Shown in pieces: positions 7,692-64,000 of a stretch of 64,000 bases of DNA; position 1 is the first letter of the stretch; each line of letters begins with the position of its first letter. A program made the position numbers and the translations under genes. The notes under the pieces were generated by a model. That model did not search any database and was not told the DNA's origin. It saw only the letters and a program-made list of their open reading frames with translations. Source of the DNA: Lysobacter sp. CFH 32150 (GTDB taxonomy: Bacteria > Pseudomonadota > Gammaproteobacteria > Xanthomonadales > Xanthomonadaceae); the NCBI RefSeq assembly GCF_022758295.1, contig NZ_JALDWJ010000002.1, positions 62,001 through 126,000 of the forward strand, given 5' to 3'.

Positions 7692-8046
7692 GGGGGTGCA
7701 CCTGGCTTCGACGGGGGTTGCGAAATCGTCTGGCGCATGCCGAGGGGGCAGCTTTCCTCGTTAATCCAGCCGCAAAACCTCAGACGCCAACGACGACGTC
7801 TACGCTCTCGCCGCTTAAGGCGTAAGCCCCGAACCCACTTGTGCCTGTGCTCGTGGATGTAGGGTCATCATCACAGGATCGGCCGTGGCGGCGACCCGTC
7901 AACCACGGCTCCAATAAAGCGGGTGTGTCCTGCGGTGTGCCTCGCACGTCGTGTTGCCGCAGGACGAGACCAAACGGCGAGCTAAGCATGTAGTGCCGGA
8001 GATGGAGTGCCTTCGGACGGGGGTTCGATTCCCCCCACCTCCACCA
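7692..8046 (+). ncRNA. ssrA: Transfer-messenger RNA (tmRNA)
   Basis: tmRNA rescues stalled ribosomes with SmpB. The 5' end GGGGGTG pairs with CACCTCC before the discriminator A and encoded CCA, forming the acceptor stem. A T-arm (GGGTTCGATTCCC) and the 5' CTTCGACGGG segment are present. The tag reading frame runs from GCC 7786 to TAA 7816-7818 and encodes ANDDVYALAA, ending in the usual LAA degron. At about 355 nt it is a one-piece tmRNA of normal length. Its last 15 nt form the left end of an island. Confidence 0.97.
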
Positions 8047-8235: not shown

Positions 8236-11200
8236 ATGTCTCGAATCATTCGAAGCGCAAGGATGGTGCTCGTTAGCGCCTGTCTGTTTATTACGACTCA
8301 GGCGCTGGCCGCGTCGCCGGTTTCTAAACCAACCATCGTTGACACGTCAACGACCATCATTGGTGCTGACGGTACGATCACTAAAGCCAAGGCGCGCGCG
8401 ACCTCCTCCGCTCGATCGAGTTTGCATTCCGAAGCGGTTGCTAGTCCACAGCCAGGCGAAATCACGGCCTGCCTCTCGGCTGGGGCTTGGGACAATTGCA
8501 TGACCGATACCCAAATGGCCACCACTGACTGGGGCATGGGGTACAACATCTTGCTGGACGGGGTGACGCCGTTCTACCGCGTTGAATGGACACAACTGGA
8601 TGGGACCGTATATCGATTCAGGAATTTCTACTTGGATGACGATTTATGCCCCGCTCCGACGCCAGAAAACCCGACCAACTACTACTTGGACTACAACGGC
8701 CCCTTTGCCGGCGATGAGCTCTGCTGGCCCGAGGGAAGCTGGCAATCGTGGTGGGTCTACCCACACAAGGCGGGCAGCTACAAGTTTCGCGGATATATTA
8801 ATTCCTATCCCAGCGAGCCTTTGAGTAATGACGTCGGCACGGTAGTGCCCGGCACACTTCGAATCGCCTCAGGCAGCGGACAGTCGGTCCCCGCAACTGA
8901 GTGGGCCCTGGGACCTCTCACAATTTCCATTTCTGACTTCAGGGGTAATCCGGTTTCATATCCCATCGAAACCAGCTCCACTACCAACCGCTTTGCTTTC
9001 ACCATCGCAGGGCCCACCAATTCGACAGGAGCCCTAGCCGATCCGTCCGCCGTGACTCCGGGCGCAAGCGGCTCTGCGAGCGCACGGCTACGCACCGGCG
9101 ACAAGATTGGCCAGTACAACGTGTCCGTAACATCCGAGGACGCGACGCCATTGAGTACGCCAGCGATATTGTTCGCCGTGTCTCGACGGCCGCCCGATGA
9201 CAACAAAGACAAGGAAGAAGGCAACGGCGAAGACTGCTCAGTTGCCGACCCGATCACCATCGGTATAGGGAACAGCTTCCAGCAGGAAACCGATTACGCC
9301 CGCACCGGTCTTTCGATTCTGGAGTTCGAGCGTTCCTACAATGCGCTCGGCTCCAAGTCCAAGTTGATGGGTAACTACTGGACGACAACCTTCGATCGAG
9401 CGGTGCTACCGCCCGCGATCGCAGGTGAGCCGACACGGGTGCGACGTCCTGACGGCCGAGTCATCCCGTTCACTCTGCAAGGCGGCCAGTACATGCCCCT
9501 GCGACCATATTTCCACGGCGTCCTCAGGGCCAATGGAAGCGGCTGGCAGTACGTCACGGAAGACAACACGACGGAAAGCTACGACTCGCAAGGCAAATGG
9601 ACCACGATTACCGATGCCACGGGACGCACGCTAACAGCTACGTACAGCAGCAAACCTTGGCTTACCAAGGTGACGGCCAATACCGGTGAGTCGCTGACGT
9701 TCGCGTACAACACCTACGGTCAGATCATCAGCGCAACCGATCACAGCGGCCGGGTCTGGACCTATACCTACAACGCATGGGCGAACCTTACCCAACTCAA
9801 GGATCCGGACGGGGTCTACCACACCTACCACTACGAATCGCCGTACAGCCCATACCTGCTCACGGGCATTAGTGTCGGACGTAACGCCACGCCCCAGGCC
9901 AGCGAGCGCTACGTTACTTGGACATTCGATGCGAACGGGCGTGCAATCTCAAACTATTTCACCGGTGGACTGAAGCGCTACGACATCAGTTACAACGACA
10001 TCACTGGAGAGCGCACCGTCACGGACGCTTTGTCGAATCAGGCCCTTTTCCAGACCAGAACGCTCAACGGGCGGGGCTTCGTGGACGCGGTTGTTGGCCC
10101 TGGTTTTTCAACCTGTGGGTTCGCCGATTCCGAGATCCAACGCGACCTCAACATGAATGTCACGCTCCGCACCGCATTCGGGCGCGCGACACAGTTCGGC
10201 AACTACGATTCGAAGGGCCAGTTCGGTTTCATGATCGAGGCCGCAGGGAAGTCTACAGCGCGCCGCTCGGACTACACCTACGATCCGCGCTTTATCCACA
10301 AGCCCACCTCGATCAGCCAGCCCTCGGTGTCAGCAGGCCAGATCAAGGTGACGCAGCGTGCTTATGATGCAGCGGGCAACGTGATTCAGGAATCGGTCTC
10401 TGGCTTCCGGCCAGATGGAACGCCGATCTCACGCGGTGTGACGCTCCAGTACAACGGTCCCTATGGCCAACTCTCGCAGATCGATGGGCCGCGCACTGAT
10501 GTCTCGGATATCACGCGCCTTGAGTATCACGCCACCACCAAGCGCTTGCTGCGGATCACAGACCCCAACGGCATCCAGCTTCGCAACAACATCACGTATA
10601 CCGCAACCGGACAAGTTGCCTCTGAAGATCGGCCGAACGGCCTGCATCTGACGTATACGTATTACCCGGGTACCGACTTGCTGAAGTCGGTAACGGAGGC
10701 TGGAACAGGCAGCACACGCACAACCACCTGGACCTACAACGACCGACGCTGGGTGACAGCGCTGTCTTTTAGTGATGGCATCAACACAGACATCGCAACC
10801 AACTTTGAATACAACGCCGCCGGCGATATAACGAAAGTGTGGTCTCCGGGCGCGGGCGCAATCAGTTACACATTGGACGCGGCTGGTAACCGCAAGAAGG
10901 AATCGTATCTCGAGGACTATGCGGGCACAGAGCGTCGCTGGGTTCAACGAACCTTCGATGCGTACGGGCGCACCAAGGACCTGATCAATGCGGACAATCA
11001 GTCTCAGTACGTTGTCCATCCCGAGGGCACGCTTACGAGCAGCATCGATGGACGGAACAACACAACGTCTTACACCTACGACGATTTCAAGCGCCTCACG
11101 CAGACACTGCTGCCAGGGCAGGTCGCAACCTCGTATGGGTATGACGCTCAAGATCGGCTTATAAGTGTCACCGATGGCAATCAAGCCACCACGGCCCTGC

Positions 11201-13551
11201 TCTACGACGACCTGGGCAATCGCATCCGCCTGGAAAGTCCGGACACCGGAATTACCACCTTCGCGCACGATGCCGCGGGAAATGTCATCGGATCTACTGA
11301 TGCGCTGGGGCAAGCGACGGCCTATACCTATGATGCAGGCAACCGCCTTAAGACCGTCGACCGCGTCGGTACTGCTGACGACGAGTCGTACACCTTCGAC
11401 ACCTGTGTCAATGGGTCAGGTCGGCTCTGTATCGCAACCAACGGTATTGGCGACTTCGTTCGATATGACTATGACGTGCTTGGCCGTGCCGCCAAGCAGA
11501 CCACCAACGCGGGCGTCGTCAGCTACCAGCATGATGCCGCAGGCAATATCACCGAGATCACTTACCCCTCGCAGCGCAAGGTTCGATACGTCTACAACGG
11601 GGGCAGCCAGGTGACCAATGTAACGGTCATCGATGGTGGTAATTCTTATGCCCTGGCGCGCAACATCTCGCACCTTCCCTTCGGTCCTGCCAGGAGCTGG
11701 ATCTACGGCAACGGGCTCAGCGAAACCCGGCAATACGACCTGCAGTATCGACCGGTGACGTTCAACGCCGGCGGACGCTCTGCGGTCAGCTATGGGAGCT
11801 ATGACGGCGACAGCAACCCAACCCAGCGCACGCTCAACGGCGACTCGCAGGCTTTGACGTACGACGCCCAGGCACGGCTGGATACAGCTTCCGGTGCGTT
11901 TGGCACACGCGACTATGGCTACGACGCCGTCGGCAATCGCACCAGCTTGAGTGCCGATGGCCAGACGACGTCGTATGCCTACCAACCACAATCCAATCGC
12001 CTGCTTTCGGACACGCAATGGAGTTACACGCACGATCCCAATGGCAACGAAACCAGACGGCAAGCACTCGACGGCCATGGCTGGGACCTAACCTATACGG
12101 CCAACAACCGCCTGATGGGTGTTACCGATCTGGAGAGCCCGGTCACACTCTTGGGGGCGTACCGCTACAACGCCCTTGGGCAACGCACCCTCAAGAGCAC
12201 GCCGTACGGCGACACACGGTTCGTTTACGGCCCTTCCGGAGAGTTACTGGCGGAACTGTTACCTGATGGCAGCGTGACTCAGGAGTACGTGTACCTCGAT
12301 GGCGCGCCGATCGCCCTTCTGGGAGCGCCAGCAGCACCGGCCGCGCCGTTCGGCGTCGATCAGACCATCGACAATCCCGCGAGCGATGCGGCCTGCTCGG
12401 TCAAGCGTGCATCCGAGGCCATCAATGGCAACTACCTGCTCTGCCCTCGCACCGGTTCCAGCTTCCAATTGGAATGGCCTTGGGAGCCGCCCTATACCGG
12501 TGACTACGACCTCTACATCCGATGGGCGTGGACATCCGACTCACAGTGCTATGAATTCCGGTTTGTCACCTTCCCGACATGCGTCGGTGCCGGCGCTGCG
12601 GCAGGCACATGGGTATCGCTGGGCCGCCATCACCTGGTCGCAGGCACGCGGGATCCTATGCTCAGCACCCAGGCCAATAGCTGGAACAACCTCAGCCTGA
12701 AGATGGATGCGATCCGCTATGTGCTGGCGTACAAGGATGTGACTGACCGGGACTACAAGTATGTACATACCGATGCCCTCGGCACACCGCAGCGGGCGAC
12801 CGACAAGCTCGGTACGGTGGTCTGGCAGGCGAGCTACGATCCGTTCGGTGCTGCAGTCATCGACGATGATCCCGATGGCGACAGCGTCCATCAAGCCCTG
12901 AATCTGCGCTTCCCTGGCCAGTACTACGATGCCGAGACTGGGCTGCATTACAACTATTTTCGCGATTACGATGCGCGGCTAGGCCGCTACCTGGAGGCTG
13001 ACCCGATCGGCCTCCAAGGCGGACTAAATCTCTATGCTTACGCCGACGGCAATCCGGTTGCTACAGTCGACCCCCAAGGGCTTTGGAGCGCCAGTCCCGG
13101 GCAGAATTATGGTCCGATGTACTCCAATAACCCGGATCGAAGCGTCTATGTCGCTCCTGCCGGATACATCCGCTACAAGCGAGGCGATAACACGATCATT
13201 CCCGCCCCTGGATTGCATGGCAACATCCTGTGCCTGCAACTCTGTCTTGGTCTGCAGTTGACAATCACAGGCGGGAGCGAAGGTGCGCCCTATCATGCTG
13301 GGCGCAACCACCCTGCAGGAAAGGCGTGCGATTTCGGATGCAACTCGAACCCTGCCCTGTGCAAAATCCCCAATGGCACGGTCACGGATTGTGCCGCCAG
13401 ATGTGGCTTCACCAACGGAATGCGCCACGCACCAGATCACTGGCATCTGTCAACTGCGCCCGGCGACAGGGTGCCCTCAATACTTCCGCCGCCGCCGGCG
13501 CTCCCGTTCGGAGATGGCCCGATTGTTCCTCTTCGTTTCCCCCCGCCCTGA
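8236..13551 (+). CDS. Exported RHS/YD-repeat protein with M15-like peptidase tip
   Basis: A 1771-residue protein. ATG 8236 follows an AGGGA ribosome site and opens a Sec signal peptide ending near ALAAS. Residues about 25-330 are an N-terminal exported region. Next comes the SVADPITIGIGN segment that precedes RHS shells, then many YD repeats (YDAAGN, YTYDAGNRL, YGYDAVGNR). Residues about 1369-1500 interrupt the core with a Trp-rich golvesin/carbohydrate-binding-like insert. The RHS core resumes at YKYVHTDALG and ends YLEADPIGLQGGLNLYAYADGNPV...DPQGLW. The last 150 residues carry HPAGKACD and DHWH, matching the M15 (VanY-type) zinc site H-x-x-G-x-A-x-D plus H-x-H (His1692, Asp1699, His1737), and are Cys-rich as expected outside the cytoplasm. 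A peptidoglycan-peptidase toxin is inferred. Confidence 0.88.
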   Translation: MSRIIRSARMVLVSACLFITTQALAASPVSKPTIVDTSTTIIGADGTITKAKARATSSARSSLHSEAVASPQPGEITACLSAGAWDNCMTDTQMATTDWGMGYNILLDGVTPFYRVEWTQLDGTVYRFRNFYLDDDLCPAPTPENPTNYYLDYNGPFAGDELCWPEGSWQSWWVYPHKAGSYKFRGYINSYPSEPLSNDVGTVVPGTLRIASGSGQSVPATEWALGPLTISISDFRGNPVSYPIETSSTTNRFAFTIAGPTNSTGALADPSAVTPGASGSASARLRTGDKIGQYNVSVTSEDATPLSTPAILFAVSRRPPDDNKDKEEGNGEDCSVADPITIGIGNSFQQETDYARTGLSILEFERSYNALGSKSKLMGNYWTTTFDRAVLPPAIAGEPTRVRRPDGRVIPFTLQGGQYMPLRPYFHGVLRANGSGWQYVTEDNTTESYDSQGKWTTITDATGRTLTATYSSKPWLTKVTANTGESLTFAYNTYGQIISATDHSGRVWTYTYNAWANLTQLKDPDGVYHTYHYESPYSPYLLTGISVGRNATPQASERYVTWTFDANGRAISNYFTGGLKRYDISYNDITGERTVTDALSNQALFQTRTLNGRGFVDAVVGPGFSTCGFADSEIQRDLNMNVTLRTAFGRATQFGNYDSKGQFGFMIEAAGKSTARRSDYTYDPRFIHKPTSISQPSVSAGQIKVTQRAYDAAGNVIQESVSGFRPDGTPISRGVTLQYNGPYGQLSQIDGPRTDVSDITRLEYHATTKRLLRITDPNGIQLRNNITYTATGQVASEDRPNGLHLTYTYYPGTDLLKSVTEAGTGSTRTTTWTYNDRRWVTALSFSDGINTDIATNFEYNAAGDITKVWSPGAGAISYTLDAAGNRKKESYLEDYAGTERRWVQRTFDAYGRTKDLINADNQSQYVVHPEGTLTSSIDGRNNTTSYTYDDFKRLTQTLLPGQVATSYGYDAQDRLISVTDGNQATTALLYDDLGNRIRLESPDTGITTFAHDAAGNVIGSTDALGQATAYTYDAGNRLKTVDRVGTADDESYTFDTCVNGSGRLCIATNGIGDFVRYDYDVLGRAAKQTTNAGVVSYQHDAAGNITEITYPSQRKVRYVYNGGSQVTNVTVIDGGNSYALARNISHLPFGPARSWIYGNGLSETRQYDLQYRPVTFNAGGRSAVSYGSYDGDSNPTQRTLNGDSQALTYDAQARLDTASGAFGTRDYGYDAVGNRTSLSADGQTTSYAYQPQSNRLLSDTQWSYTHDPNGNETRRQALDGHGWDLTYTANNRLMGVTDLESPVTLLGAYRYNALGQRTLKSTPYGDTRFVYGPSGELLAELLPDGSVTQEYVYLDGAPIALLGAPAAPAAPFGVDQTIDNPASDAACSVKRASEAINGNYLLCPRTGSSFQLEWPWEPPYTGDYDLYIRWAWTSDSQCYEFRFVTFPTCVGAGAAAGTWVSLGRHHLVAGTRDPMLSTQANSWNNLSLKMDAIRYVLAYKDVTDRDYKYVHTDALGTPQRATDKLGTVVWQASYDPFGAAVIDDDPDGDSVHQALNLRFPGQYYDAETGLHYNYFRDYDARLGRYLEADPIGLQGGLNLYAYADGNPVATVDPQGLWSASPGQNYGPMYSNNPDRSVYVAPAGYIRYKRGDNTIIPAPGLHGNILCLQLCLGLQLTITGGSEGAPYHAGRNHPAGKACDFGCNSNPALCKIPNGTVTDCAARCGFTNGMRHAPDHWHLSTAPGDRVPSILPPPPALPFGDGPIVPLRFPPP

Positions 13552-13587
13552 AATTGCCCATTTCGCGCCAGTCGTTCTGGAGGACCT

Positions 13588-14130
13588 ATGCGTCTGACAA
13601 ATCTGCTCTTTGTGCTGGCTTCCTTAGGTCCCTGCCTAGGTGTGCAGGCCGAGGGCGTCGAAGATCCCGCTATGAACCCGGAAGCCGTGCTTAAGAAGGA
13701 CTATGCGGACAAACGCTATTGGCCGTCGGGACAAGGCCTTCGGGAGAGAATCGAGTTCTGCGGAGGAGATTGGTGCCAGGAAGTACTGATGGAGCGACCA
13801 GAAACTTCGCAGAAGCAGGCATGGGATGCCGCCTTTCTAATGTTCTATTTCTTCGATGCGAATGAAGGATTTCGGTCGCGGCGTAGCGCCACTGCAACGC
13901 GGCTGTTGGATCGGTATTCCAAGAGTTGCGTTTCAGGCGCCCCTGAGAGCAGAGCATCTTGTATTCTTCAGAAACTGCAGTCTGCACATAAGCTTAAGTA
14001 CCGAAGGGTTCAGTACGATGTTGGCTACCGCTGTTACAGCGAGTTTGATGCTGCGCCGCCTCACTTCACGAATCGAGGCGCATGTCGTCGAATCAAGGCG
14101 TCTCCCTCTAAGAATGCCGACACCCGGTAA
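13588..14130 (+). CDS. Exported protein, candidate immunity to the RHS tip
   Basis: A 180-residue protein of no recognised family, with a signal peptide (RLTNLLFVLASLGPCLGVQAE) and six or more Cys in the mature part. GGAGG stands 8 nt before the ATG and the gene begins 36 nt after the RHS stop, so it is likely co-transcribed. A small gene directly behind an RHS variable tip is normally its immunity gene. Export fits a toxin that acts on peptidoglycan in the periplasm. The function is inferred only from position and export; a lysozyme-inhibitor-like or accessory role is possible. Confidence 0.6.
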   Translation: MRLTNLLFVLASLGPCLGVQAEGVEDPAMNPEAVLKKDYADKRYWPSGQGLRERIEFCGGDWCQEVLMERPETSQKQAWDAAFLMFYFFDANEGFRSRRSATATRLLDRYSKSCVSGAPESRASCILQKLQSAHKLKYRRVQYDVGYRCYSEFDAAPPHFTNRGACRRIKASPSKNADTR

Positions 14131-14276: not shown

Positions 14277-14292
14277 CCCCCACCTCCACCAT
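14277..14292 (+). other. attR-like direct repeat of the tmRNA 3' end
   Basis: An exact copy of CCCCCACCTCCACCAT from the tmRNA terminus, 6.2 kb downstream. It is immediately followed by a strong terminator, which was probably the original ssrA terminator before insertion. The 146 nt between the upstream gene and this site show no coding signal. Confidence 0.7.
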
Positions 14293-58564: not shown

Positions 58565-58753
58565 CTAGCGATTCTTATCTCTGTTTTTGTAGAGAAGGTA
58601 TACGCCAATTCCGATCAGTCCAATGCTGACTACGTATGCATATTCACCGAGCACAATTGGCGCGCCTGGCGCGAGTCGCTTATCCGCGCGGATGATTGCC
58701 ATGATGCCAAGCACGATTAATGCCCACCCCAGACTCGGATTATTAGTTTTCAT
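58565..58753 (-). CDS. 62-residue two-TM protein, candidate immunity to the RHS tip
   Basis: ATG 58753 overlaps the RHS stop by 11 nt (ATGAAAACTAA), so it is translationally coupled. TM segments are at about 9-22 and 38-56; the product is basic at the end (YKNRDKNR). Position right after an RHS tip and membrane location suggest an immunity protein against a membrane-acting toxin. No family recognised; role inferred from context. Confidence 0.6.
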   Translation of the reverse strand: MKTNNPSLGWALIVLGIMAIIRADKRLAPGAPIVLGEYAYVVSIGLIGIGVYLLYKNRDKNR

Positions 58754-61700
58754 CAAGCCGATCTCGAATTTCTTCCGCAAAAGCACCGGCGGCCAAGCCT
58801 TGGGGTGTTGCTGCTGGGGACTCCACTCCTGTTAAGCCCTCGACGGTCTCTGTAGCAACATCGCTAGCCTGCTCCATCCTTACTTCTGACCCCAAGAAGC
58901 TGGTCACCGCAGGATTAGTTAAGACGTTCGTGACCACATTGGAAACCCTCGCTGCAACAGCCTGCGCAGCTTCCCCGACTTTGGTAGCAACAACCTTCCC
59001 AGCTTCCGCTGTCTTTGTGAGCACCGTATCCCTAGCTTTTACTAGCATGCCTTCGGCCGCAGTCGCAGCTTTGTTGGCTAAATTGGCTAGGCCTGTAGCG
59101 GCACCAGTCTCGACAGCAACAGCAGGCGCAGCGCCCAAGGCGGCCGAACCGCCTACAAACCCCATCACCATTCGCCCATCGTGCCCACGAATCTGGTCAG
59201 CTCGAACCATTGCCGGATCACGCATGCTTACCGGGATCGGGCACGGCAAGAATCCCCAACCGGTCGAACAACGTCCATCAGGGTCCTTGAATCTGTACGG
59301 GTTGTTGTTGGCGTACCAATAGCGATTGAAGTTCCCGCCGGTATTGCCATCCGCCGTGACCGGATCGACGCTCAAGAACCGTCCGATGCCGGGGTCGTAA
59401 TAGCGCTGCTGCATATACGTCAGCCCCGTCGCCGCATCCTCCACATGCCCGGTGTAGCCGGGACCATCGTGGACCGGGCGATTTAGCACCTTGCCGTAGG
59501 GCTCGTACTCACTGCGTTCCAGTACAACGCGGCTGGCATCGGTCACCGCCACCGGACTGCCCAGCGCATCGGTGTGTTGGTACTTCACCACATGGTTGTT
59601 CGTCCCGATCGGCGTCTCGCGCGTGGCCACCAGGCTGCCGCCCAAATAGAAATGGGCGTATTGCTTGCTCTTGCGGGAATCCTGCTGGTAGCGCAGCACA
59701 CCGCCCATATCGTATTGCGACAGGATGTTGCCGTTGGCATACCCCGGCGCCCAGGCCAGCGCCCGACGTCCATGACCGTCGTAGCGATAATGTTCCTTGC
59801 CGGTGACGATCCGCAGGCGATTGCCGAAGTCGAAGTCGTAGTTCTGGCCGTTCTTGTTGTCCAGATTGCCCTGCAGGTCGTAGCCCAGGCCGATCACGCT
59901 GGCGCCGGAGCAACTCGTGGTCTTGACGTTGGTGAGTCGCCAAGCCGCGTCGTAGCAGTAGTAGTGATCCCGCGCGGCAGTCCCGCCGACATGGACGCGG
60001 GTCAGGTTGTCCAGCACGTCGTATTCGTAACTGGCACCCTCGCTGCCGAACATCGGCGAGGTGGTGGTGGTGGTCTTGAGCCGGTCCAGCCCGTCGTAGG
60101 TCATCGTGCGATTGCCCCACGCTCCAGCCAGACCATCGCTGATCGCGGCGACATTGCCGTTCTCGTCGAAGTCATAGCTGTCGTCCAACGTCGAAGTACC
60201 GCCGTACGCATCCTTGCTGCGGTCAGGCAACTGCCGCGTGTTCTGAGCCAGCGTGTGAACGATGCCATTGCCATAGGTGAACTGGGCGATGGCGCCGTTC
60301 GGGTGGTAGCTGACGCCGGTGGCGTAGGTCCCTGCCTTGGTCGGTTGGCCCAGGGCATTAGGCGCATAGTCCACCGTAACGTTGTTGGGGTAGACGTGCG
60401 ATGCCAGGTTGCCGTTGCCGTCGTAGCCATAGCCCAGACCCCACGTGTACCACTCGGGCTGACTGATCGATTCGCCTTGTCCATCTAGCAGCCGGCGTCG
60501 GTTGTAGTGATAGGCGTTGATCACCGGCACGCCGTTGTTGGTGGCGTTGTACGTGGTGATCTGGTCGGGCTTGCTATCCGGGGTATAGGTCCAGACCTGA
60601 TTGCCGACGCCATCCGGGAAGCTCAGCGTTTTCAGCCGATTGCGGGCGTCGTAGGTCCGGTCGGCGCGACGTCCGGTGGTATCGATGGTGCAATCAGTAG
60701 TGTTGGACCAGGGCAACCCGGCGGCAGACCAGGCGAGATTGCCAGCCGCGTCGTAGCCCATCGCGGTCGTGCCGGTCTCCAACTCGACGCGCTTGCACAG
60801 TTGCTGGTTGGCGTCATAGACGTAGTAGCGGCCGTTCCAGACTGAACTGTCGGCATTGCCCCGTACGAGAGTGGTGGGTTTGCCGAACACATCCCGATAG
60901 ACCGTGGTGCGCGCGCCTTCCGGGAGGAGCATGACCCTCGGCAAGTCTTGCGTCGGCTGGTCGTAGACGTAGTACGACGTAGTGGTCGCATGACCCCGTG
61001 GGTTCGTGACGCGGGTCTGGAAGCCAGTCAGATATTCGGTCGTGCTGGCCAGTACGCCCAGTTCGGAATCCTGCTCGACGCGAGTGACGCGATCGAGGGA
61101 GTCGTACGTGGTGCGCGAGCCCTGCGTGACGGTCGCGTAATCGGTAAGGCTGCGCAGCGGGTACGACTGGAATACAGGATGACCGCCCGCGTCATAGCGC
61201 GTCACGCTCACGCTGCGGGTGTTGGCTGCATCGGCACTGTCGTAACTTTCCGTCACGAGCGGCCGCCACATCGCATCGAAATAGGACACCTTGCGTGCAT
61301 TGCCGGTGCTGACGATCTGTTTCCAATGCCCGCCCGCAATACCGTATTCGCTCGTGAGTACCGGCGCGAACGTTCGCGTGGTTTGAGCCCACTTGGACGT
61401 ATCGCAAACGTCGTTCTCCACCGGCGCCGTTTCAGATGGATGGGTAATGTTGGCCAGACGACCCATCGCGTCGTAGCCGTAGCACGTCCTGTAGCCGTTC
61501 TCGTCCTCAGCCCATTCGATCCAGCCAAGCGGGTTGGCATGCGCCGACACACTGGCACCGGTAGGCTGATCAGGCGTGGCCGGATACTGGATGAGTTCCG
61601 GAATGCCACGGTTCCAGACCGAGAAGGTCGTGGTGTAGTTGCGGCCGTCGGTGAGCTGCCTGAGCGTCCCGTCCGTGTAATAAGCCGCGCTGTGTTGCAG

Positions 61701-63695
61701 TTTGTTGAAGCTGTAGCTGGCCGTCGGCAATGCGGTGATGGCGTGATAGTCGGTCCGTGAAACCTCGATGCCATCGGTGGTCAGCTTCTTGACCTGGCCG
61801 AGCACCCATTTGCTGGTGTTGTGCTCGTACTCGGTGACATTGGTCTGCGTGTAACCCAGCGAACTCGCTCGGGTCACGCTCAACGGGTTGGCGAATTGGT
61901 CGAAGCTGTAAACGCCGTTTGTTTGATTGGCCTGCCAGGTGAACGTCGTCCCCTGCTGGGTGATCTGGCGCTGGATGCTGGGCGTCAGTTTTTCAGCAGA
62001 ATGATCCCCTCGCAGATAGGGGCTTCGACCCACTTGGCTCGGGTAGGCCTGGTTCGTGGGGTCTAGTAGGTAGGTCGTGGTTTCGGTCTTGAGAATGCTG
62101 GTCAGTGCGCTGCCCGTTTCGACTTTCAGTAGCTTGCCGTCGGTGTCCCGATACTTGTTGCCGAAGGTGTAGCGCACGAAGTCGCCGGGGCCGGTCACTT
62201 CCACCGTCTTGGTCGCCACGCAGCCGCTGGTGCAATCCTCGGCCCAGCTATTGTTCGGCGGGCCGTAGGTATAGCTCCATTGCGCCACGGGCAACCCGGG
62301 GCCGCTGATCGTCTTCTGGATCAGGCCGACCGTGTCGAAGTAGAACGGATTGTGTGCATAGTCTGCTGCGCCGTAGGGATCCGGCTTGATGCACACCTTG
62401 GGCACGTAGGACCGACCGTGCAGCTTGGACTGGAACCGGAACTCGCCGACTGCCCCGGAGGGATGAGTGATGGTGCCAGTGTAGATCGGCTGCGTGGCAC
62501 CGGAACTAGGTTGCTCGCAGAACGCGACAATGTTCTGGTTGGGCTGAGGTGAGGTGTAGGCCTGACGCACCGTCCCGAAATTGATCAACCATTTCGACGT
62601 GTCCGGCAATTCCACCTCACTCAGTCCGCTGCTATATCTATAGATCCAAGTGCGCGTGTCGTCTGACACCGACGCAATGTCCCCGTCGGTGTTGTAGCCC
62701 AGCGTCAATTGGCGTCCATCATTCGCGGCGATCGTCGTGAGCCGCCACGGATGGGTGGCGTCATAGGTGTAGGTGACATAGTTGCCGAACCGGTCTTCGA
62801 CCCGCGTCGGCAGGATCCAAACCTCCATGCGGGTCAGGCTGGTTTTGTCGCCTACTGGCGCCATAGTTGTGACTTGGTCGGAACTGGTGGCATCGGTGGT
62901 GCTGGTGGTCGACTCGCCCGACTCGCTGAGCGCTTGGACTGGGCCCTTCTCTTTCACGATCGTCGAAGCTTCTCGACTGGCGAACCAATCGAACCAGTAC
63001 CGTGTGCCGTCCGGCGAAATTGCAAGGAACGCTTCGCCCGGCACGCCGTTGGCGGTGTTGGGCAGGCACGAGAAATACCACTGGTTGTTGGTGACCCACT
63101 CATAGGTCTTGCCATCGGTGGGCTGATGCGGGTTCGACGTTCCGACGCTCAGCATCTCCTGATCGCCAACGCCTGGGATGTAGGCGTTGTACCCGTGCCA
63201 GTACTCACTGGCCTCCCAAAGCCCTCCAAAAGACCCGGTCGCAACCAGCGGTTCCCGCAAACCTCCAGCAGAACAACGGAGGTTCGGGTCGCCTTGGCCG
63301 TTCCTGACCTGCCAACCACCGTTACTGTCGTAGGCCGCAGTGCTGAAAACAGCATGCAAATGCGGGATGTCCAACTCCCAGTCCGCGAACATGCCGTCCG
63401 CCGACATGAGGTTGTTAACCGCCTCCATGTCCCGGCTCTGGACCACAAATCGCCGTCCTACGGCCACTGGCAGGGAACTGTTGCCTGGCAGGCTCACGTC
63501 CGTGGCCGAGAACGTCGTCGCACCGGTGTAGAAGCTTGTTTGATCGCCGAACAGGTTCGGACCCAGGGCCCCGACTGCTTCGGCGGACTTGATTGTCTTG
63601 CCATATTCCTCGGGGATCGTGACTTGGCCCCAGGCCGGAGCAACCAGGACAGCACACACCAGCAGCGCACCTGCGCCGCGAACCATAAACTTCAT
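58743..63695 (-). CDS. Exported RHS/YD-repeat protein with Ala-rich tip
   Basis: 1650 residues from ATG 63695, chosen because AGGGG lies 7 nt upstream and a Sec signal follows (LLVCAVLVAPAWGQ). The N-terminal third (VGRRFVVQSRDMEAVNNL, WYFSCLPNTANGVPGEAFLAISPDGTRYWFD) is unlike that of the RHS protein at 8236. Then come YD repeats (YGYDAMGRLANITHP, YDAAGNLAWS, YGYDGNGNLASH) and the core end VKYQHTDALGSPVAVTD, GRFLSVDPVTADGN, NPYRFKDPDGR. The last 175 residues are a different tip: Ala/Val-rich amphipathic helices (GFVGGSAALGAAPAVAVETGAA, ARDTVLTKTAEAGKVVATKVGEAAQAVA), with no catalytic motif. Membrane disruption is a possible action. Confidence 0.85.
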   Translation of the reverse strand: MKFMVRGAGALLVCAVLVAPAWGQVTIPEEYGKTIKSAEAVGALGPNLFGDQTSFYTGATTFSATDVSLPGNSSLPVAVGRRFVVQSRDMEAVNNLMSADGMFADWELDIPHLHAVFSTAAYDSNGGWQVRNGQGDPNLRCSAGGLREPLVATGSFGGLWEASEYWHGYNAYIPGVGDQEMLSVGTSNPHQPTDGKTYEWVTNNQWYFSCLPNTANGVPGEAFLAISPDGTRYWFDWFASREASTIVKEKGPVQALSESGESTTSTTDATSSDQVTTMAPVGDKTSLTRMEVWILPTRVEDRFGNYVTYTYDATHPWRLTTIAANDGRQLTLGYNTDGDIASVSDDTRTWIYRYSSGLSEVELPDTSKWLINFGTVRQAYTSPQPNQNIVAFCEQPSSGATQPIYTGTITHPSGAVGEFRFQSKLHGRSYVPKVCIKPDPYGAADYAHNPFYFDTVGLIQKTISGPGLPVAQWSYTYGPPNNSWAEDCTSGCVATKTVEVTGPGDFVRYTFGNKYRDTDGKLLKVETGSALTSILKTETTTYLLDPTNQAYPSQVGRSPYLRGDHSAEKLTPSIQRQITQQGTTFTWQANQTNGVYSFDQFANPLSVTRASSLGYTQTNVTEYEHNTSKWVLGQVKKLTTDGIEVSRTDYHAITALPTASYSFNKLQHSAAYYTDGTLRQLTDGRNYTTTFSVWNRGIPELIQYPATPDQPTGASVSAHANPLGWIEWAEDENGYRTCYGYDAMGRLANITHPSETAPVENDVCDTSKWAQTTRTFAPVLTSEYGIAGGHWKQIVSTGNARKVSYFDAMWRPLVTESYDSADAANTRSVSVTRYDAGGHPVFQSYPLRSLTDYATVTQGSRTTYDSLDRVTRVEQDSELGVLASTTEYLTGFQTRVTNPRGHATTTSYYVYDQPTQDLPRVMLLPEGARTTVYRDVFGKPTTLVRGNADSSVWNGRYYVYDANQQLCKRVELETGTTAMGYDAAGNLAWSAAGLPWSNTTDCTIDTTGRRADRTYDARNRLKTLSFPDGVGNQVWTYTPDSKPDQITTYNATNNGVPVINAYHYNRRRLLDGQGESISQPEWYTWGLGYGYDGNGNLASHVYPNNVTVDYAPNALGQPTKAGTYATGVSYHPNGAIAQFTYGNGIVHTLAQNTRQLPDRSKDAYGGTSTLDDSYDFDENGNVAAISDGLAGAWGNRTMTYDGLDRLKTTTTTSPMFGSEGASYEYDVLDNLTRVHVGGTAARDHYYCYDAAWRLTNVKTTSCSGASVIGLGYDLQGNLDNKNGQNYDFDFGNRLRIVTGKEHYRYDGHGRRALAWAPGYANGNILSQYDMGGVLRYQQDSRKSKQYAHFYLGGSLVATRETPIGTNNHVVKYQHTDALGSPVAVTDASRVVLERSEYEPYGKVLNRPVHDGPGYTGHVEDAATGLTYMQQRYYDPGIGRFLSVDPVTADGNTGGNFNRYWYANNNPYRFKDPDGRCSTGWGFLPCPIPVSMRDPAMVRADQIRGHDGRMVMGFVGGSAALGAAPAVAVETGAATGLANLANKAATAAEGMLVKARDTVLTKTAEAGKVVATKVGEAAQAVAARVSNVVTNVLTNPAVTSFLGSEVRMEQASDVATETVEGLTGVESPAATPQGLAAGAFAEEIRDRLDEN

Positions 63696-64000
63696 GCATC
63701 CCCTTTCCTTTTTATGGCCCGCCGCATTGCACGGCGATGCCCTACCCACCAGCTTGGCATTGTACCGGCCGGGTCAAGTGACATGTCTTTGCAGGGACGA
63801 ACGGCCTGTTCACATAGCGCCACTCATCACCTCGGCGGCGAACGCCGCACGGCGGGAGTCCGATTCCTTGCTGAAGGCAGCAAGGAGATCTAAAGCTCGT
63901 TGTAAGGACGAGGTCGTCCGCAGGTAACCGCGTAGGGAATATCGACACCACAAACAATAAACCCCTGTTAAAACAGGGGCTTGAGTACACATGTAGCGGA
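63696..64000. other. Upstream region of the second RHS gene
   Basis: 305 nt. On the minus strand TTGACC and TACAAT occur near 63770-63785 but at unsuitable spacing, so no firm promoter is called. A hairpin at 63962-63979 is listed separately. No other gene is seen. Confidence 0.5.
63950..63980 (-). terminator. Candidate terminator of a gene beyond the window
   Basis: CCCCTGTT-AA-AACAGGGG (perfect 8-bp stem) followed, on the minus strand, by TTTATTGTTT. It would end a leftward transcript arriving from beyond base 64000. Confidence 0.6.

Follow-up and report, generated by a model that had tools for sequence, protein, structure and literature searches.

The window analysed here is a 64,000-nt stretch of the genome of Lysobacter sp. 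CFH 32150, in which two open reading frames of 1771 and 180 codons follow each other on the forward strand with a gap of 36 nt and a ribosome-binding-like GGAGG just before the second ATG (Table 1). These coordinates agree with those of the initial annotation, which had described an exported RHS protein with an M15-type peptidase tip and an exported partner. In addition to the domains listed in Table 1, the longer protein scores 155 bits with RHS_repeat and 43.8 bits with RHS in Pfam (the latter at residues 1509–1541), as well as 88.1 bits with Rhs_assc_core in NCBIfam, in a match that runs to residue 1616; all three lie above their cut-offs. The RHS core ends with DPQGL (residues 1612–1616), and the 155 residues that follow it form the C-terminal tip. 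The Pfam search found neither a PAAR nor any other leader domain in the 1771 residues, the absence of PAAR having already been annotated. An insert had also been placed at residues 1369–1500, and it is indeed present: Golvesin_C is its best Pfam match, and the surrounding region (residues 1361–1510) is 53% identical to that of a related RHS protein at locus L052. Since the insert is conserved in this relative, it belongs to the scaffold; that it may bind a sugar is a guess.

Both proteins appear to carry Sec signal peptides, as the initial annotation had it. The RHS protein starts with a basic n-region, a hydrophobic core and an ALA-A cleavage site, giving MSRIIRSARMVLVSACLFITTQALA as the signal peptide with A as the first residue after cleavage, and the 180-residue protein starts with MRLTNLLFVLASLGPCLGVQA, cleaved before E; both signals and cleavage points were read by eye, no predictor being used. 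The 180-residue protein had been called unrelated to named families, and neither it nor the tip matches any family in Pfam, NCBIfam, PHROG or PADLOC. AlphaFold models it as a small mixed alpha/beta protein (pLDDT 75.8, pTM 0.72), and a fold search of the PDB with this model returned nothing at E < 0.15.

Table 1. Coordinates, strand and supporting evidence of the features in and around the RHS gene.
Feature	Position	Strand	Evidence
RHS polymorphic toxin gene (well-supported reading), 1771 aa	8236..13551	+	ORF; DUF6531, RHS_repeat, RHS (Pfam) and Rhs_assc_core (NCBIfam) above cut-offs
Putative Sec signal peptide of the RHS protein, residues 1–25	8236..8310	+	sequence reading
DUF6531 domain, residues 338–412	9247..9471	+	Pfam 40.7 bits, cut-off 24.1
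Insert weakly similar to Golvesin_C, residues 1392–1494	12409..12717	+	Pfam 19.2 bits, below cut-off 31.6
RHS core end, residues 1509–1616, scaffold/tip boundary	12760..13083	+	Pfam, NCBIfam; L052 identity stops about here
C-terminal tip, residues 1617–1771, proposed M15-type zinc peptidase toxin	13084..13551	+	motif; displaced homologs in L036 and L038
HPAGKACD, proposed zinc ligands His1692 and Asp1699	13309..13332	+	HxxGxAxD motif of M15
DHWH, with Asp1734 (proposed catalytic residue) and His1737 (proposed zinc ligand)	13435..13446	+	D-x2-H spacing as in T5 endolysin D130/H133
Predicted cognate exported immunity gene, 180 aa	13588..14130	+	five homologs that stay intact where the tip has decayed or is missing
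Putative signal peptide of the 180-aa protein, residues 1–21	13588..13650	+	sequence reading; hydrophobic N-termini in homologs

Relatives of the scaffold, the tip and the partner gene

Relatives of the scaffold were sought with the N-terminal region of the RHS protein in 297 genomes of the family, and three of these, this one included, were found to carry it. The RHS protein at L052 (4527–9899) is 58% identical across residues 101–1616 and then continues into an unrelated tip, followed by an ORF for a 62-residue predicted membrane protein rather than a homolog of the 180-residue protein. A polymorphic toxin is by definition one in which the same stalk carries a different tip and is followed by a different downstream gene. 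As L052 combines a shared scaffold with another tip and another downstream gene, the tip is, on this comparison, exchangeable, and the polymorphic-toxin reading of the RHS gene is well supported. Comparison with the relatives described here and below shows a conserved scaffold (signal, DUF6531, RHS repeats, insert and core to DPQGL) with an exchangeable tip, and a next gene that forms a cassette with the tip. Searching other genomes for different tips had been proposed by the initial annotation, and L052 supplies one.

The 180-residue protein has five homologs in the same family sample (L035–L039; 44–50% identity). Close homologs, all of them with a hydrophobic, signal-like N-terminal stretch and six invariant Cys, thus occur in six of the 297 genomes, this one included; wide occurrence of the small gene away from RHS genes, which had been named beforehand as an observation that would speak against the pair, is not what we find. 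A weak match at L044 was rejected as a further relative, as no ORF corresponds to it.

The surroundings of these homologs are informative. At L036, the live RHS gene is intact and ends in a different tip; behind it come an orphan piece of RHS core joined to the same tip as here (64–76% identical, frameshifted), and then an intact homolog of the 180-residue gene. The decayed tip keeps the zinc ligands and five of the seven Cys of the present tip, and the orphan core ends are 82–93% identical in DNA to those of the live RHS gene, a degree of similarity that fits displacement through homologous recombination. The RHS gene of L038 is likewise intact and differs in its tip, and behind it a 25-residue remnant of the present tip precedes an intact small gene. 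The L037 locus (Lysobacter sp. yr284) aligns with L038 on both sides and lacks the 6.6-kb RHS block while keeping the small gene; L039, whose flank is related to that of L038, also keeps the small gene and has no RHS gene, and the homolog at L035 lies within an RHS array. Tips that are lost or decayed beside intact partner genes form the orphan-immunity pattern, so we read the partner as an immunity gene. Judged by this genomic association, the gene directly downstream of the tip would be its cognate immunity gene, and the 180-residue protein is very probably the antidote of the tip. The swapped tip of L052, the displaced and decayed tip copies beside intact partner copies and the restricted distribution of the partner together bear out the earlier description of an RHS toxin with an exported partner. 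A separate observation at L038 (4925–6181) is that two tandem small ORFs, 70% identical in DNA, follow the intact RHS gene; they probably arose by duplication of an immunity gene against the tip that this RHS gene now carries.

Two papers (PMC2935791, PMC10539506) describe displaced Rhs core–tip modules behind a live rhs gene, with orphan immunity genes retained. L036–L038 resemble these cases, which are enterobacterial or T6SS-linked as described there, whereas the present ones come from Xanthomonadaceae and combine an exported RHS protein with an exported immunity protein.

Relatives of the tip itself are scarce. Searches with it gave no match in genome contigs or plasmids; a phage match and the PDB sequence matches were at chance level, and so were class-wide matches of the tip core (E 1e-3 to 1e-2), with HxxGxAxD in none of the loci checked. 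A weak match at L045 was discarded because its frame lacks the motif. The L036 pseudogene is the sole other relative of the tip found here that has the active site.

The putative zinc site of the tip

The initial annotation had recognized in the tip the zinc-site layout of M15 peptidases in a Cys-rich context. Both observations hold: His1692, Asp1699, Asp1734, Trp1736 and His1737 are present at the expected places, and the tip has seven Cys in its 155 residues compared to 12 in the approximately 1590 residues of the scaffold. The signal-like N-termini and the Cys of tip and partner fit an oxidising compartment, so their target is probably periplasmic. As in VanY, VanX and T5 endolysin, HxxGxAxD is followed by [DE]-x-W-H. 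In T5 endolysin, zinc is bound by H66, D73 and H133, and D130 is catalytic (PMC10487532); the tip has the same H-x6-D spacing as this enzyme and, from the general base to the last zinc ligand, the same D-x2-H spacing. Shuffling the tip 400,000 times never produced the combined motif HxxGxAxD...[DE]xWH, and among the compared ORFs, a set enriched for VanY loci, it occurs in VanY/M15 proteins and in the RHS gene only.

Profile comparisons point the same way with weak scores. Alignment of the tip to VanY proteins of the family by hhalign covered both motif regions and scored higher than 99 of 100 shuffles. With a combined M15 HMM built from 40 M15 proteins, the tip surpassed 19,978 of 20,000 shuffles (top 0.1–0.2%) in a match located at the zinc motif, its 3.1 bits being insignificant in absolute terms. 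None of the Pfam M15 profiles (PF02557, PF08291 and PF13539) matched the tip, even with E values as high as 1 allowed, and a set of M15_3 proteins gave none by hhalign or HMM comparison. An AlphaFold model of the tip alone, which the initial annotation had wanted inspected at the zinc site, is unusable (pLDDT 31 from a 4-row alignment) because the tip has too few relatives. The proposed M15 assignment is thus borne out at the level of the motif. The tip also departs from known M15 peptidases in being short, Cys-rich, fused to an RHS protein and accompanied by an immunity gene. On the strength of the motif, we consider it likely to be an M15-type zinc peptidase.

VanY-like sequences are found elsewhere in the same genome: a 2291-residue ORF (L115, 1255–8130, minus strand) has a VanY domain (410–542) together with DUF7800 and PhoD-like regions. 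This ORF is non-RHS, and a 2311-residue frame with a VanY match in this genome was likewise set aside because it does not encode an RHS protein.

Alternative readings, delivery and mechanism

The reading that we favour, and regard as probable, is that of an RHS polymorphic toxin exported by Sec and encoded beside its immunity gene, in which the tip would be an M15-type zinc peptidoglycan peptidase. The main challenge to it concerns the tip alone: the locus could be a true RHS toxin/immunity cassette with some other Cys-rich periplasmic toxin as its tip, the H/D/W/H cluster being a structural zinc site or a coincidence. The silent M15 profiles, the weak HMM scores and the unusable model are what such a tip would leave us with, and the spacing from the Asp to the last His is 38, shorter than the 48–60 of the T5 and RB49 enzymes. 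The M15_3 member L071, however, has about the same spacing as the tip, and neither the absence of the full motif from the shuffles nor the rank that the combined HMM gives the tip, precisely at that motif, is readily put down to coincidence. We therefore hold another kind of toxin to be unlikely, albeit worth keeping in mind.

Far less probable are two readings that change the role or the route of the whole protein. The RHS protein could be a self-directed cell-wall or surface protein serving growth, adhesion or predation, with the small gene encoding an accessory factor; it is exported, no T6SS sheath gene is found in the genome, and each of the 40 family genomes tested, among them the present one, has housekeeping peptidases of the VanY family. 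A scaffold as rare as this one, which moreover carries a replaced tip at L052, fits such a role poorly, and an accessory factor would hardly be kept where its tip or any RHS gene is missing, as it would lack its enzyme; we regard this reading as very unlikely. Even less credible is the idea that a contractile injection system, be it a T6SS or an extracellular one, delivers the RHS protein as its effector. Most studied Rhs toxins do travel by T6SS, but the present protein has a signal peptide and no PAAR domain, and TssC (VipB), the T6SS sheath protein, is absent from the 99.86%-complete genome in a search in which the E. coli control was positive. Of the two marks of a T6SS Rhs effector, PAAR is missing from the protein and a T6SS, as judged by TssC, from the genome, whereas those of the Sec/T2SS class are found: an N-terminal signal, read by eye, and no dedicated secretion leader domain in the Pfam search. 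As the genome has no T6SS sheath gene, delivery would start with Sec.

For the Sec-exported toxin, the following mechanism can be envisaged. The RHS part would form a shell around the tip, and the protein would be exported by Sec and reach the surface or the medium by a non-T6SS step. The tip may be set free where the core ends, like the tips of other Rhs proteins, enter the periplasm of a competitor and fold there with disulfides. Its zinc ligands would be His1692, Asp1699 and His1737; using Asp1734 as the general base, it would cut peptidoglycan peptides as a D,D-carboxypeptidase or an L,D-endopeptidase. The exported 180-residue protein would remain in the periplasm of the producer and block the tip.

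Known systems and further observations

Zhang et al. 2012 (PMC3482391) list RHS toxins with signal peptides under 'T2SS/Sec-dependent'; the tips in their catalogue that act on peptidoglycan include a thiol L,D-peptidase. The present pair shares with the Sec/T2SS class described there a signal peptide, RHS repeats, an exchangeable C-terminal tip and a downstream immunity gene; it differs in that M15 is not named in the text of the catalogue that was searched, and that its tip and immunity protein match no named family. M15 modules have been reported in T6SS effectors, namely Tpe14 of A. baumannii (PMC6833914), LysM1 of Neisseria (PMC10210955) and the WHIX effectors (PMC12135965). These likewise use an M15-type domain as an antibacterial peptidoglycan hydrolase, a role that is predicted here, but they are delivered by T6SS and have LysM, WHIX or VgrG partners, in contrast to the Sec export, the RHS scaffold and the lack of a T6SS sheath gene in our case. 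For a lipocone-linked polymorphic toxin system, a VanY-related domain has also been suggested to serve as the tip, coupled to an immunity protein (PMC12419801), a similar idea in a different system, which we liken to the RHS tip by description only. M15 antibacterial effectors on T6SS carriers and a VanY-like polymorphic tip are thus already known; we found no report of this RHS tip or of the 180-residue immunity family.

Exported RHS toxins of Gram-negative bacteria that do without a T6SS have been little studied with regard to their passage through the outer membrane and their targets. The present pair opens such questions to tests in laboratory strains, since its target is predicted to be peptidoglycan, its active site can be mutated and its antidote is defined. 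The antidote family is new, and it appears to extend into integron cassettes, the cargo of which is mostly unexplained. Weak matches to the 180-residue protein were found in four exported proteins of 151 residues encoded in Xanthomonadaceae (L040, 3519–3971; L041, 4095–4547; L042, 10854–11306; L043, 4402–4852), which keep C58, C63, C114 and C125 and align with the family by hhalign (92.5%, E 4.8e-7). In L040–L042, nearly identical attC-like sites border the ORF on both sides, and 36 core-like sites occur in L041, which identifies these relatives as single-gene integron cassettes. The 180-residue gene might thus represent a new disulfide-stabilised periplasmic immunity family against M15-type cell-wall toxins, the distant relatives of which circulate in Xanthomonadaceae as such cassettes and offer portable protection against exported RHS toxins; we put this forward tentatively, as a possibility that we hold to be less likely than not.

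The tmRNA gene ssrA lies upstream of the RHS gene (7692–8046), and its last 14 nt (8033–8046) have a single further exact copy in the window, which directly follows the immunity gene (14278–14291; chance expectation about 0.01). We rejected an island inserted at ssrA as the origin of the RHS pair: what follows the true ssrA is similar to the native terminator of this gene in relatives, so that the repeat is not a clean attachment site, and inspection of the stretch between the two 14-nt copies revealed no integrase-like gene. A second RHS ORF of 1668 residues occupies 58743–63749 on the minus strand of the window, with RHS_repeat and RHS above the Pfam cut-offs. Its N-terminus is signal-like and its tip hydrophobic; the gene immediately downstream (about 58565–58750) encodes a small protein predicted to lie in the membrane, and the two genes are a candidate for a second toxin–immunity pair.
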